64,000 nt of DNA from Arthrobacter sunyaminii (lineage in GTDB: Bacteria > Actinomycetota > Actinomycetes > Actinomycetales > Micrococcaceae). The DNA lies in NCBI RefSeq assembly GCF_018866305.1, contig NZ_CP076456.1:1426001-1490000 (forward strand), written 5' to 3'. This document shows positions 23,931-28,334 of this stretch, in pieces (the stretch's first letter is position 1; each line of letters begins with the position of its first letter). Position numbers and translations under genes: made by a program. The notes under the pieces were generated by a model, which saw only the letters and a list, made by a program, of their open reading frames with translations, did no database searches and was not told the DNA's origin.

Positions 23931-24770
23931 TCAGCAGGAGGATCTGGCCGGCCCAAGATCCAGCGGTTTCAGCATGGAGGACAGCCCGATCCGCCGGGAC
24001 TCGGCGCAAAAGTCCAGCGGCCCTTGATATTCGACGTGCAGAACGGCCTTTCCCTCGTCGGCGAAGGGCTTGTACGCCTCGCATTCCCCGTACCGAAAAC
24101 ACTCCTCATTGACGGCAAAATCAAAGTCATCCGCCAGTTCGGGAATCTGGTCGATGTCGTTCTTCAAGCCCACCGATAATCCGCGGGCATGGGCCAGTTC
24201 TGCAACGGACCGGTTGTAGGCCACCTGGTCATCCGCCGTCAGCGGGAAGCCCGTCTCATTGACATAGCCGTCAACATTGTCGGGTTCCACGGCGTCGAAT
24301 CCCTTCGCCGCGCAGGTATCCATTCGTGCTGCCATGATCGGCAGGAGAACGTCCGTCCGGCGGATGTCCAGCCACCGCTCATCCGGCCAGCCGTCCACGA
24401 TGTTCCCCAGGACCGTTTCCGGGAACTGTTCTGCATCGCCCCGGAAGTCCTCCCAGGAACCAACCGACAAATAGCAGATTGAGTGCCTGCCGTTTTCCTT
24501 TAGGGTGTCATTGTCCGTCTGTGTTGCTGTCTCGTAGTCGACGTCATACACGTCGGCGTCCACCGTGAGGTCCAGCGCACCGCTTAGCTGCCACTGCCAG
24601 CTGTCTGAGGGAGACGGGGTCCACCGCACAGACACTGGCTCCGCCCGCGCTTCCGGGATGACCTCGGCCGTGACGTCAGGAACGGGTGTGCAGGCGCCCA
24701 GTGAGAACGGGAGGAACGCGGCGCAGGCCACCGCGGCAACGCGCGCTTTGTGCCGGAGATGTCTTTTCAC
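23931..24770 (-). CDS. GH114-like endo-alpha-1,4-polygalactosaminidase lipoprotein
   Basis: 279-aa secreted lipoprotein: basic N-terminus, hydrophobic stretch and lipobox LGAC (Cys27). The mature part is a TIM-barrel of the GH114/TM1410 type, with WQWQLSGALDL, VYDVDYETATQTD, ICYLSVGSWEDFRGD, FDAVEPDNVDGY and NEECFRYGECEAYKPF. YDVDY and AVEPDNVDG hold the expected acidic catalytic residues. Known GH114 enzymes cut galactosamine polymers such as fungal galactosaminogalactan. Last gene of a four-gene overlapping operon; its ATG overlaps the spherulin-like gene stop by 4 nt. Confidence 0.85.
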   Translation of the reverse strand: MKRHLRHKARVAAVACAAFLPFSLGACTPVPDVTAEVIPEARAEPVSVRWTPSPSDSWQWQLSGALDLTVDADVYDVDYETATQTDNDTLKENGRHSICYLSVGSWEDFRGDAEQFPETVLGNIVDGWPDERWLDIRRTDVLLPIMAARMDTCAAKGFDAVEPDNVDGYVNETGFPLTADDQVAYNRSVAELAHARGLSVGLKNDIDQIPELADDFDFAVNEECFRYGECEAYKPFADEGKAVLHVEYQGPLDFCAESRRIGLSSMLKPLDLGPARSSC

Positions 24771-25450
24771 GGACTCACCCTCTCAGCGGACAAACGGGCG
24801 GAGACGGCGGTGGAGGTTCCCAGCCAAGGGTTGGGCAGGGTCCGGTCGGTGGCAAAGACATACCCTGCGCCGTGACTTCCTGCAGCAAGGCGGACGGCCT
24901 CGATCTCACCGGGGCCGCAGCCGTACACCAAATGCCACAGCTGGGACGGCGGTATGCTGCGCGCCCAGTCGGGTGGGCGAAAATCCGCGTAGGCCTCTGC
25001 TGTGCCCTCAAAGACAGCGGTGACATCGAACAGATTCAGATGTGCCTGCGAGGGAAACCTGCCGGGGTTGGCGGCCAGGAAGGTGATTCCTGCGGCTCGA
25101 GCGGCAGCCGCGTATTGAGCGCACTGCACAAGGCTTTTCGGATGGGAAGGAAGCTCGTCGAGCATGATTCCGTCGAGACGGTACAGCCTTTGCCAAGTCT
25201 CAATGTCCCGGGCAACGTCCGCCACCGGCCGGTTTCCGTAATCCACCCGCACGTACCCAAGCAGGCGTATGCACGGCCGCAGTGCCGCCACAGCGTCAGG
25301 ATAGTACTCGTCGTCGTCGCGCCCCGGCCCGTTGTGGACATTGAGAATGGCAAACGAAACCCTTCCGTGCTGAGCGGCCAACCAACTCCATTCCTGCGGA
25401 GCAACAGCCGGATGGACGTACCAGGGAATGGCGGTCCGTGCTTTCTTCAC
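24767..25450 (-). CDS. Spherulin-4 family protein (GH135-like)
   Basis: 227-aa protein with the spherulation-specific family 4 fold: TAIPWYVHPAVAPQEW, SFAILNVHNGPG, LLGYVRVDYGNRPVADV, YRLDGIMLDELP, TAVFEGTAEAY. The Asp-Glu of LDELP and the Glu of FEGT fit the catalytic acids of Sph3, a GH135 alpha-1,4-N-acetylgalactosaminidase. The GTG at 25450 overlaps the stop of the upstream membrane-protein gene (GTGA). No signal peptide is visible, which is odd for a polysaccharide hydrolase. The frame continues open further upstream, but only antisense-like to the neighbour's codons. Confidence 0.82.
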   Translation of the reverse strand: MKKARTAIPWYVHPAVAPQEWSWLAAQHGRVSFAILNVHNGPGRDDDEYYPDAVAALRPCIRLLGYVRVDYGNRPVADVARDIETWQRLYRLDGIMLDELPSHPKSLVQCAQYAAAARAAGITFLAANPGRFPSQAHLNLFDVTAVFEGTAEAYADFRPPDWARSIPPSQLWHLVYGCGPGEIEAVRLAAGSHGAGYVFATDRTLPNPWLGTSTAVSARLSAERVSP

Positions 25451-26778
25451 GCGTACGTCCTCGGATCGGACACGCGGCTCAGCAGCACGCCGATCCCGGC
25501 TACCAGGAACGCCGCGGCTACGAGTATGCCGGCTGTATTTCCTGCTGCAATCCAGGCCTCCGCGGAAAAGAAAGCGGCACCGGCAAAAACCACTCCGCCG
25601 CCAGGCAGCCCAAAGGCGGCCAGCGTGGTGGACGTAGTGGCCAGGGAGCTGAAGGCCGCCGCCACCAGCACGGTGGTGGCAACTCGGGTGTCCTCGACCA
25701 GGAAGACGACCACAAGGGTGGATACAGATGCGGAGATGACTACTATCGCTGCGGACATTGTCATGGTGAGCGACCGCGCGTTCCGGGCTGCGTGCCGCAG
25801 CAGCGGGGTCCGGTTGGAGGACCAGACGAGTCGCTGCCGCATGAGCACCAGAGCCGGATCCGTGGCTGCCGCGGCGACGACCGTGGCTACGATAAGCGCT
25901 GTTCCCTCCCAGTCCGGCAGGCGGGTCAGAGCCAATGACAGAGCCGCGGCAAGAAAGGAGGCCTGGGCGGCCGGCGCGACAGCAGCGCTCCAGCCTCCGT
26001 GCCCGAACAAGCGCCGATCGCTGCTGGTTCGCAGGTGCATCACCAGCACAACGGTGACCGACGCCAGCACCAGGACTGCCACGGACACAACAATGGCCGT
26101 GGCAGTGCGGTGGTTCAGGATCAGCGCCAGGGCAACAATTGGGACGGCAAGCCCCAGGATCGTTAACAACAACCGGGAGTTGCCGAGGATTACGAGCATG
26201 GAGACGACGCAGGAGTACCAGCACCAGGCCATGAGGAGGCCTGCCCAGCCTTGGTCATGGCCGGGAAGGACCGTGGAAACCGCTAAGTAACAGGCCAGGG
26301 CCAGGATGACCAGGATGGTTGCACCGGTCCCGCGGGCGACCCCGCGGTTCACCTGCCCAGCACCGGCCTGTGCCCAAACGATGCCCGAGATGGACTGACC
26401 GATAATCCAGGCCCCGATTCCTGCGATGAGGACTTCCCGGGTGCTGGCGGCCATCACTGTGGCAGTGAGACCGCCGAGAAAAGCACCCAGGATCAGGACT
26501 ATGCCTCGCCGGACGGCCTCAAACAGTGCGTCCCGGGACACCCAGGATTCCTGGTTGCCTGCACTCCGGATCACTGTGCGCACCTGGACAAGGGATTGGG
26601 CGTAGTCGAACACGTCCCTGGCTCCATGCCACCTGCGGGCGGTGCGGTCGGTGACGCCGGAGGACTCCAGCCTGGCGGTAATCTCGTACACGTCAACCGC
26701 GTCGAAACCGGCCTGATCGTTCGAGAACGCCGCCACCGGCCTCCCTGCTCCGGGCACAGCAACACTGTCAGCGCTCAT
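25447..26778 (-). CDS. Polytopic membrane protein, flippase-sized, in Pel-like operon
   Basis: 443-aa protein. A ~90-residue N-terminal cytoplasmic region contains VDVYEITARLESSGVTDRTA and RDVFDYAQSLV, then about 12 hydrophobic segments fill residues 90-440. Size and topology match PelG/MOP-type exporters, but sequence alone does not show membership in that family. It overlaps the glycosyltransferase gene by 4 nt upstream (ATGA) and the spherulin gene by 4 nt downstream, so it probably works with them, perhaps moving the polymer across the membrane. Confidence 0.72.
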   Translation of the reverse strand: MSADSVAVPGAGRPVAAFSNDQAGFDAVDVYEITARLESSGVTDRTARRWHGARDVFDYAQSLVQVRTVIRSAGNQESWVSRDALFEAVRRGIVLILGAFLGGLTATVMAASTREVLIAGIGAWIIGQSISGIVWAQAGAGQVNRGVARGTGATILVILALACYLAVSTVLPGHDQGWAGLLMAWCWYSCVVSMLVILGNSRLLLTILGLAVPIVALALILNHRTATAIVVSVAVLVLASVTVVLVMHLRTSSDRRLFGHGGWSAAVAPAAQASFLAAALSLALTRLPDWEGTALIVATVVAAAATDPALVLMRQRLVWSSNRTPLLRHAARNARSLTMTMSAAIVVISASVSTLVVVFLVEDTRVATTVLVAAAFSSLATTSTTLAAFGLPGGGVVFAGAAFFSAEAWIAAGNTAGILVAAAFLVAGIGVLLSRVSDPRTYA

Positions 26779-28334
26779 GCCGATACCCTCAGCGCCACTG
26801 CGTCCAGCGGTGTTGCGTCATGGAGTGCGGTCATTTTCGTCGGGAACGAGCCGGTCGGCGCCGACGCCAAAATGGCAGCGCCTTGCTTCGGTTTCAGCAG
26901 CCTTCCGGTACGGGCGGCCAGGTAGGCCTCCCGGTACCGGGTCAGGCACCGCTCCAACGTGAACTCGGAAAGCGCCCGTCGCCGTGCTGCGGCGCCCATG
27001 GCGGCCCGGCGCCTCGGATCGGTCAACAGGGAGACACAGGCATCAGCAAACGCAGCGTGGTCCCGGGCGGCAACCAGCATGCCTGTGGACTCGTGCTCGT
27101 CAAGGCATTCTCCTACGCCTCCAACATCGGTGTTGACCGTTGCGCGACCGCACATCATCGCTTCGATCAGGGTGAACGGCAGTCCTTCCGAAATACTCGA
27201 CAGTGCTACCACGTGACCGGCCTCAATGGCCGGCCGGCTGCCTTTGCTGGGGCCTTCCCAATGAACTGCCTCTGCCACACCGAGAGCCCGCGTCAGGGCA
27301 ACCAGCAGCTCCTTGTAGGCTGCGTTTTCTTTGGGAGTTGGACCGAAAATGCGCAATTGGGCATTAGGCACCCGTTCACGAACCAGCGCAAAAGCGGATA
27401 TCAGCGTTTCCAGGTCCTTCAGGGGATCGATCCGGCCCACAAAGCTGATGGTTGGAAGCTCCGGCTCGGAGGTGACGGGCAGGAAAGTCAACGGGTCAAC
27501 TCCGTTCGGAATGGTGTAGATGCGCTCCGGAAGCGCTCCGAGCCGGCGCTCCCAGCGGGCATTGAACTGGTTCACGGGAAGGACCATGTGTGCGCGCACG
27601 TTCACGACTTGGCACAGCCGCCGCAGGAACGCGGTGACCGCGCGTCGCACCGGCCAGGACAAATGAGCGCCGTAGAGCGCCAGGTAGCGCTCACGCAGGT
27701 ATACCCCGTGCTCAGTCAGCAGGATGGGTGTCCCGTGCCGCCATGACTGCGCCAGCGCAAGCAGGGATGAGGGACCGTTACTGGAGGCATGGACCACATT
27801 CACCTTTCCCAGCCGGTGATCGAGGAGGGCAAGGGCACGGTCCACGATGCTGGCAGCCATGACGGCATCCGCGACCGAGATGGGAGGTTCGCCGACGCTG
27901 ACCAGATGCCGGGTCCATGCAGCAATGATCGCTGCCACGGAGCCACGGGTTGCGAGGGAGCGAGCCAATCCAATCCGGTCACTGATGCCCACGAGGTGCT
28001 GCAGGGCGTTGGCGGTCCTCCCCACGGGATCCTGCCGTTCGGATCCCAGCGCGGCGTCCCACAACCGCTCAAGTTCATATTGGGTGGACTCAATCCAGTA
28101 GCGGCGCCGGGGGGTGGGGCGAAGCGGAGAAGCGGAGGGTCCCCAGACCGGAATCAGTCGAACCGATCGAACATTGGGGGGCACCGCCCATACGGGTTTT
28201 TCGGCTCCGCTGCCCGTGAGCGCGACCACGTCAAAGTCGTGCTCCGGAAGTCCGGTCAGGAGCTGGTCGCACCACGTACTTACGCCGCCTGTGACGACCG
28301 GGTAGGTTCCTTCGGTGATAAGGGCTATTTTCAT
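26775..28334 (-). CDS. PelF-like GT4 glycosyltransferase
   Basis: 519-aa GT-B glycosyltransferase. The N-terminal domain opens MKIALITEGTYPVVTGGVST, the hallmark of the PelF/DUF3492 group. The C-terminal GT4 domain has SFVGRIDPLKDLETLISAF, RIFGPTPKENAAYKE and the EX7E motif in SISEGLPFTLIEAMMCG. PelF of Pseudomonas is of similar length and polymerises UDP-N-acetylgalactosamine into Pel. Start at 28334 was chosen for GAAGGGG 8 nt upstream; the frame is open further 5'. First gene of the operon. Confidence 0.87.
   Translation of the reverse strand: MKIALITEGTYPVVTGGVSTWCDQLLTGLPEHDFDVVALTGSGAEKPVWAVPPNVRSVRLIPVWGPSASPLRPTPRRRYWIESTQYELERLWDAALGSERQDPVGRTANALQHLVGISDRIGLARSLATRGSVAAIIAAWTRHLVSVGEPPISVADAVMAASIVDRALALLDHRLGKVNVVHASSNGPSSLLALAQSWRHGTPILLTEHGVYLRERYLALYGAHLSWPVRRAVTAFLRRLCQVVNVRAHMVLPVNQFNARWERRLGALPERIYTIPNGVDPLTFLPVTSEPELPTISFVGRIDPLKDLETLISAFALVRERVPNAQLRIFGPTPKENAAYKELLVALTRALGVAEAVHWEGPSKGSRPAIEAGHVVALSSISEGLPFTLIEAMMCGRATVNTDVGGVGECLDEHESTGMLVAARDHAAFADACVSLLTDPRRRAAMGAAARRRALSEFTLERCLTRYREAYLAARTGRLLKPKQGAAILASAPTGSFPTKMTALHDATPLDAVALRVSA

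Follow-up and report, generated by a model that had tools for sequence, protein, structure and literature searches.

What does a galactosaminogalactan (GAG)-like operon make when no deacetylase gene accompanies it? The question is raised by four intact genes, joined by three 4-nt overlaps at 23931-28334 on the minus strand of a 64,000-nucleotide stretch of Arthrobacter sunyaminii (contig NZ_CP076456.1, positions 1,426,001 to 1,490,000; the window), which encode a PelF-type glycosyltransferase, a polytopic membrane protein and two glycoside hydrolases, GH135 (spherulin-4) and GH114. The answer we favor, and hold to be fairly probable, is that this operon is a reduced member of the bacterial GAG-like (agd3-type) exopolysaccharide operons with a neutral product rich in N-acetylgalactosamine (GalNAc). 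The polymer is probably of this kind because the deacetylase Agd3 appears to have been lost in the Arthrobacter clade. An initial annotation had pictured a minimal system for a galactosamine-type polymer: the link that it drew to Pel and GAG chemistry was right and the gene set is indeed reduced, but the reduction is most likely derived, given that an Agd3-type deacetylase is present in the nearest relatives and not in the Arthrobacter clade; as no deacetylase was found, the product is more likely to be rich in GalNAc than of the galactosamine type.

Absence and probable loss of Agd3

Agd3 was sought with a profile built from an alignment of 11 Agd3-like proteins, in which the Asp-Asp and His-x3-His positions are kept. 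Over 29 genomes of the genus, A. sunyaminii included, it gave no credible match (best E value 0.099, in genome G549); elsewhere it matched G153 (9e-275) and G275 (2e-293), both of which have rows inside the alignment, and G156 (3.8e-75), which lies outside it, and found none in G057, G031, G039 or G337. A single Agd3 query had no match in the A. sunyaminii genome, and G662 and G674 show no Agd3 within a 19-kb stretch. As for the identity of the family, the large protein beside PelF scores above the cut-off of PF25115/PF25116 at locus L101, below it at L070 and not at all at L071, and the L070 protein retrieved no Agd3 from the Protein Data Bank (PDB). Of carbohydrate esterase (CE) family 4, searched as PF01522 without PelA- or PelADA-like profiles, the A. 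sunyaminii genome holds a single 43-position piece in a broken-looking stretch, at 23.2 bits against a cut-off of 23.1.

Trees of PelF place this absence in an evolutionary context. With L136 (cut off) and L007, L077 and L179 (repeats) left out of the first tree, the Arthrobacter clade, none of whose rows has Agd3, is nested inside Agd3-bearing rows, with support of 100/99 in the first tree and 86/98 in the second; L070 and L156 are flagged as long branches. Two Agd3-bearing sisters, a Kocuria rosea plasmid and G682, fall outside the clade, and G275, which also bears Agd3, comes next outside. Because these nearest relatives keep the gene, the trees suggest that Agd3 was probably lost in the Arthrobacter clade, and loss is a simpler reading of its absence than import of a copy already lacking it.

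A second, separate group of 21 rows also has no Agd3, with GalE in 21/21 and GH135 in 19/21. A single loss for all Agd3-less rows (the 14 of the Arthrobacter clade and these 21) was rejected by the approximately unbiased test (p 1.9e-14), for groups named after the tree had been seen. Two changes were counted over 69 of the 78 rows; the count leaves out six rows without the membrane family (including L103, at a contig end) and L114, L115 and L117, where L115 shows just an Agd3 fragment and L114 and L117, in which Agd3 was not detected, would add changes.

The wider relatives show how unusual the Arthrobacter gene set is. PF11997, the PelF family, matches in 46 of 394 class genomes and PF12138, that of GH135, in 31. 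We counted neighbors within about 9.5 kb of PelF at 59 of 67 full-length class-level places, leaving out the window, eight places and split matches; contents come from profile matches, with profiles iterated on the same stretches, and gene calls are poor in very GC-rich loci. The membrane family is present in 55 stretches, GH135 in 48, a GalE-like gene in 43, an Agd3-like gene in 32, a nucleotidyltransferase in 18 and GH114 in 16. The four without the membrane family comprise two cut by a contig end (L103, L136) and two of a distant PelF group (L099, L100). The notion that the hydrolases are generally missing from related operons is thus wrong for GH135 and right for GH114 alone. Since 15 of the 16 stretches with GH114 also hold Agd3, GH114 without Agd3 makes Arthrobacter the exception. 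The order PelF, membrane protein, GH135, GH114, together with an Agd3 homologue, recurs with diverged proteins in G275 (L070) and G153 (L074). Loci on Deinococcus and Thermus plasmid records combine PelF, the membrane family, an Agd3-like protein and GH114, with no GH135 match.

Many of the class genomes surveyed here have genus code g64, among them a separate group of loci (L093, L096, L098, L102, L105, L131-L135, L137-L147) that carry PelF, a diverged membrane protein, GalE and mostly GH135, and no Agd3.

Synthase, membrane protein and known systems

The family assignments and the 4-nt overlaps proposed at the outset were borne out (Table 1). The synthase matches PF11997 at 5.7e-45 and the NCBIfam model PelF (NF038011) at 165.7 bits against a cut-off of 100, GH135 matches PF12138 at 9.2e-33, and GH114 matches PF03537 at 6.3e-85.

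Table 1. Genes of the operon and their overlaps, in window coordinates
Feature	Coordinates	Strand	Details
PelF-type GT4 (glycosyltransferase family 4) glycosyltransferase, predicted polymerase	26775..28334	-	519 aa, ATG start; PF11997, glycosyltransferase group 1/4 domains, NCBIfam PelF
Polytopic membrane protein, predicted exporter partner of PelF	25447..26778	-	443 aa, ATG start; without Pfam or NCBIfam family
GH135 / spherulin-4	24767..25450	-	227 aa, GTG start; PF12138; without recognizable export signal
GH114	23931..24770	-	279 aa, GTG start; PF03537; lipoprotein-like N-terminus (LGAC)
PelF/membrane protein 4-nt overlap	26775..26778	-	ATGA
Membrane protein/GH135 4-nt overlap	25447..25450	-	GTGA
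GH135/GH114 4-nt overlap	24767..24770	-	GTGA

Does the synthase act on GalNAc at all? PelF might make another glycan, such as a wall polymer with other sugars, on which the hydrolases would then act. The donor specificity of a GT4 enzyme is unreadable from sequence, and the nucleotidyltransferase in 18/59 related clusters and the UDP-glucose dehydrogenase in that of L101 hint at further sugars; against this, two hydrolases of the alpha-1,4-galactosaminidase type and the Agd3-like deacetylase in 32/59 relatives point to a GalNAc polymer, and we regard a different glycan as improbable.

The membrane protein begins with about 83 soluble residues, after which a simple hydropathy count finds 12 hydrophobic segments; the initial annotation had called it flippase-sized and compared the operon with one in which PelG exports. 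We reject an identity with PelG: PF16933 (PelG) has no match in it or anywhere in the A. sunyaminii genome, and hhalign, run without a positive control, gave the membrane family a probability of 0.2% (20 rows) and 0.1% (27 rows) against seven PelG proteins. By their coordinates, none of the 13 class-level PF16933 matches shares a contig with a PelF match; they sit on different contigs or in genomes lacking PelF. Beyond the search of Pfam and NCBIfam with the window's protein, a scan of 20 diverse family members gave single weak matches, all to unrelated families, and a PDB sequence search with the family profile gave chance matches. At least 45 relatives were found, all of Arthrobacter where a source names the organism, and a profile containing one Thermus row had Thermus proteins among its 49 matches. 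The operon points to this unnamed family as the likely exporter in actinobacteria, Deinococcus and Thermus. Its soluble N-terminus (25450-26778 and homologues; alignment A2) carries a conserved motif, VDxxEIAAxLE..G..DR....G..DVFxLA, possibly a docking site for PelF.

Since no likeness to PelG was detected in the membrane protein, the Arthrobacter operon is, as judged from its proteins, not a strict Pel operon. The hydrolase families of the Gram-positive pelDEADAFG operons (PelAH) differ from those found here. Gram-positive Pel operons were found through PelF plus PelG (PMC7112168, PMC7112194; apart from PMC7229062, the papers cited in this text are represented by extracts); the Arthrobacter operon shares with pelDEADAFG a PelF above the NCBIfam cut-off, and differs in having neither PelG nor a recognized deacetylase (PMC7112168). 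With Pseudomonas pelABCDEFG it has in common PelF and a hydrolase for this type of polymer (PMC12345266), but again not PelG.

The closest precedents are the bacterial agd3 operons, including those of Actinobacteria, described in 2020 with a glycosyltransferase, a membrane protein, GH114 and spherulin-4, and for which transfer between bacteria and fungi was suggested (Bamford et al., PMC7229062). The Arthrobacter operon resembles them in its cytoplasmic glycosyltransferase, multi-span membrane protein, GH114 and, as in some Actinobacteria, spherulin-4, and departs from them in that no Agd3 (CE18) match occurs in A. sunyaminii or the 28 other genus genomes and in having no epimerase gene. The fungal GAG cluster, given in the extract as uge3-gtb3-agd3-sph3-ega3 (PMC4817252), likewise combines a glycosyltransferase with Sph3-type and Ega3-type hydrolases; unlike in that cluster, separate genes encode the glycosyltransferase and the membrane part in Arthrobacter, Agd3 and epimerase genes are missing from the operon, and GH135 has no recognizable export signal. 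In the open-license literature, supplements excluded, we found no description of an Arthrobacter operon without Agd3. The kind of operon is already in print; its Arthrobacter form lacking Agd3 is new, and as a natural GAG/Pel-like system without a recognized deacetylase it would make the role of charge in such polymers testable.

The hydrolases and the predicted product

GH135 aligns to Sph3 (5C5G, E value 1.7e-11; also 5D6T) and retains the Asp-Glu pair and Glu222, as do all 14 Arthrobacter-clade rows. The alignment agrees with Asp166, which we take to be the nucleophile of Sph3. In the extract of PMC12054363 the nucleophile is printed as Asp196. On which side of the membrane does the enzyme lie? 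Its start codon overlaps the preceding gene a few residues ahead of the barrel, and among 66 GH135 matches near PelF (L096 and L140 give two pieces each) one, an extra copy at L074, has a hydrophobic 13-mer in the 60 residues ahead of it. This test is independent of the chosen start, uses hydropathy rules instead of a trained signal-peptide predictor, and depends on where the profile begins. The nearest start codon was dropped as proof of a signal-less GH135, as chance alone makes a start within 25 residues likely. The bacterial arrangement thus appears, from these predictions, to differ from that proposed for fungal Sph3, with GH135 placed on the opposite side of the membrane. At L074 (6704-7933, G153) the extra GH135, of 409 aa and with a signal-like N-terminus, adjoins Agd3, in addition to an operon GH135 without export signal.

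The best PDB match of GH114 is Ega3 (6OJ1, E value 3.2e-50), with the equivalents of Asp189 and Glu247 kept; this catalytic pair is present in 32/32 GH114 rows, 14/14 of the clade's among them, and no clade-specific substitutions were found at the thresholds used. The N-terminus in the window reads ...LPFSLGAC; among 33 GH114 matches the N-terminus is lipobox-like in 28 (sites inside the domain match counted) and a hydrophobic stretch lies upstream in 26, so GH114 mostly looks like a lipoprotein. Might such an enzyme serve chiefly for offense or nutrition, cleaving the cationic Pel or GAG of neighboring bacteria and fungi as a surface lipoprotein, perhaps with GH135 in a like role, and sit in the operon by descent? 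Its lipoprotein-like start and its fungal best match would fit, as would its being the least constant of the four genes (16/59 stretches, no match around the G674 operon); the 4-nt overlap with GH135 in the window and its company with the synthase in 11 of 11 operon-bearing genus genomes speak against it, and we give the offensive or nutritional role little credence.

We return to a reduced GAG-like operon with a neutral product, for which the following sequence of steps can be proposed. A GalE-like enzyme whose gene lies outside the operon would provide UDP-GalNAc, from which PelF would build an alpha-1,4 polymer at the cytoplasmic face of the membrane; the membrane protein would carry this polymer across in PelG's stead. 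GH135, on the cytoplasmic side, would remove or shorten acetylated polymer stalled at the synthase, and lipoprotein GH114 would act at the cell surface. The exported polymer would be GalNAc-rich, little or not deacetylated, and neutral instead of cationic. A candidate GalE-like gene, the best of eight matches (44% identity, open frame), is present elsewhere in the genome, and there is a precedent for such a polymer: Pel of S. intermedius is described in the extract as mostly GalNAc, cleaved by Sph3 and not by Ega3 (PMC12345266).

Several points weigh against this proposal. Since Ega3 is reported, in the extract, to require stretches of deacetylated galactosamine (PMC12054363), it would be odd to find GH114 under constraint next to a polymer that is fully acetylated. 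A P. aeruginosa PelA deacetylase mutant is described as making no extracellular Pel (PMC10269871), a deacetylase of another family may act in trans, and donor sugar, linkage and export role are predicted from families alone. Conservation over the 63 GH135 rows is incomplete: 54 have the Asp, 44 have Glu222 and 14, all from the Arthrobacter clade, have Glu as the second acidic residue, though misalignment may account for part of the loss. For fungal Sph3 the proposed place of action is the polymer's exit from the cell (PMC12054363), which is not the cytoplasmic side assumed for GH135 here. Finally, the upstream test was positive in 3 of 34 cases for Agd3, which is presumably secreted, probably because the Agd3 profile begins ahead of the signal, and the negative for GH135 is therefore weaker than it appears.

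In another explanation, an unrelated deacetylase encoded elsewhere acts on the polymer, which would then be cationic like Pel and GAG and open to trimming by GH114 in the manner of Ega3. The presence of GH114 in all 11 operon-bearing genus genomes, its catalytic pair in 14/14 clade rows and its ratio of nonsynonymous to synonymous substitution (dN/dS) of 0.10-0.32 would be expected on this explanation. Bacillus cereus PelADA is reported to deacetylate GalNAc oligomers and to fit no existing CE family (PMC13254593), so such deacetylases can escape family searches. It is opposed by the lack of a credible Agd3 in 29 genus genomes and by the lone PF01522 piece, from a search that did not extend to PelADA-like profiles, and we judge a cationic product rather unlikely, if less so than a different glycan or an offensive GH114.

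The neutral GalNAc-rich product, which remains our preference, can be placed in a broader and more tentative scheme that we would not yet call likely: PelF and the membrane family would form a second, PelG-independent route by which alpha-1,4-GalNAc polymers are made and exported, with cytoplasmic GH135 as quality control on the inside, and Arthrobacter, on losing the deacetylase, would have exchanged a cationic glue for a neutral polymer and re-purposed GH114.

Conservation and neighboring loci

The four operon genes are maintained under purifying selection, as dN/dS is 0.08-0.32 over 12 comparisons (four genes against three relatives). The membrane protein occurs in 11 of the 29 genus genomes, A. 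sunyaminii included, each time with the other three genes, of which GH114 is set 3.4 kb further on in G546. With four candidates scored per genome, a diverse membrane profile matches in at least 16 of 395 sampled family genomes, weakly in G775 (1.1e-8).

In the window the operon sits between pheT and a quinone-oxidoreductase/argC block; the flanking genes, named from reading their translations, are pheT, a SnoaL-like protein, a quinone oxidoreductase, argC and argJ, and the annotated lack of a deacetylase or epimerase nearby holds for the open reading frames so read. One or both flanks recur in 8 of the 11 genomes; pheT and quinone-oxidoreductase/argC were not found in the operon stretches of G080, G131 and G546. 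A scan for promoters at the operon found none, and terminators were no different from shuffles.

Elsewhere in the A. sunyaminii genome, near G000:C1:3903000-3906000 (L189), short frames read as fragments of UDP-sugar dehydrogenase, GalE-like and CE4-type genes, which looks like a decayed polysaccharide locus. A distant PelF-like gene is found in two genomes of the same family, G031 (L099) and G039 (L100), and on the Paenarthrobacter aurescens plasmid pTC2 (L161), adjoined by GalE in G039 and pTC2, with no GH135 or GH114 within 9.5 kb in any of the three. On the Kocuria rosea plasmid NZ_CP126484.1, typed as mobilizable, an Agd3-PelF-membrane protein-GH135-GH114 cassette (L156, 5383-14713) is flanked by two identical 941-bp insertion-sequence copies, inverted relative to each other, a layout like that of a composite transposon.

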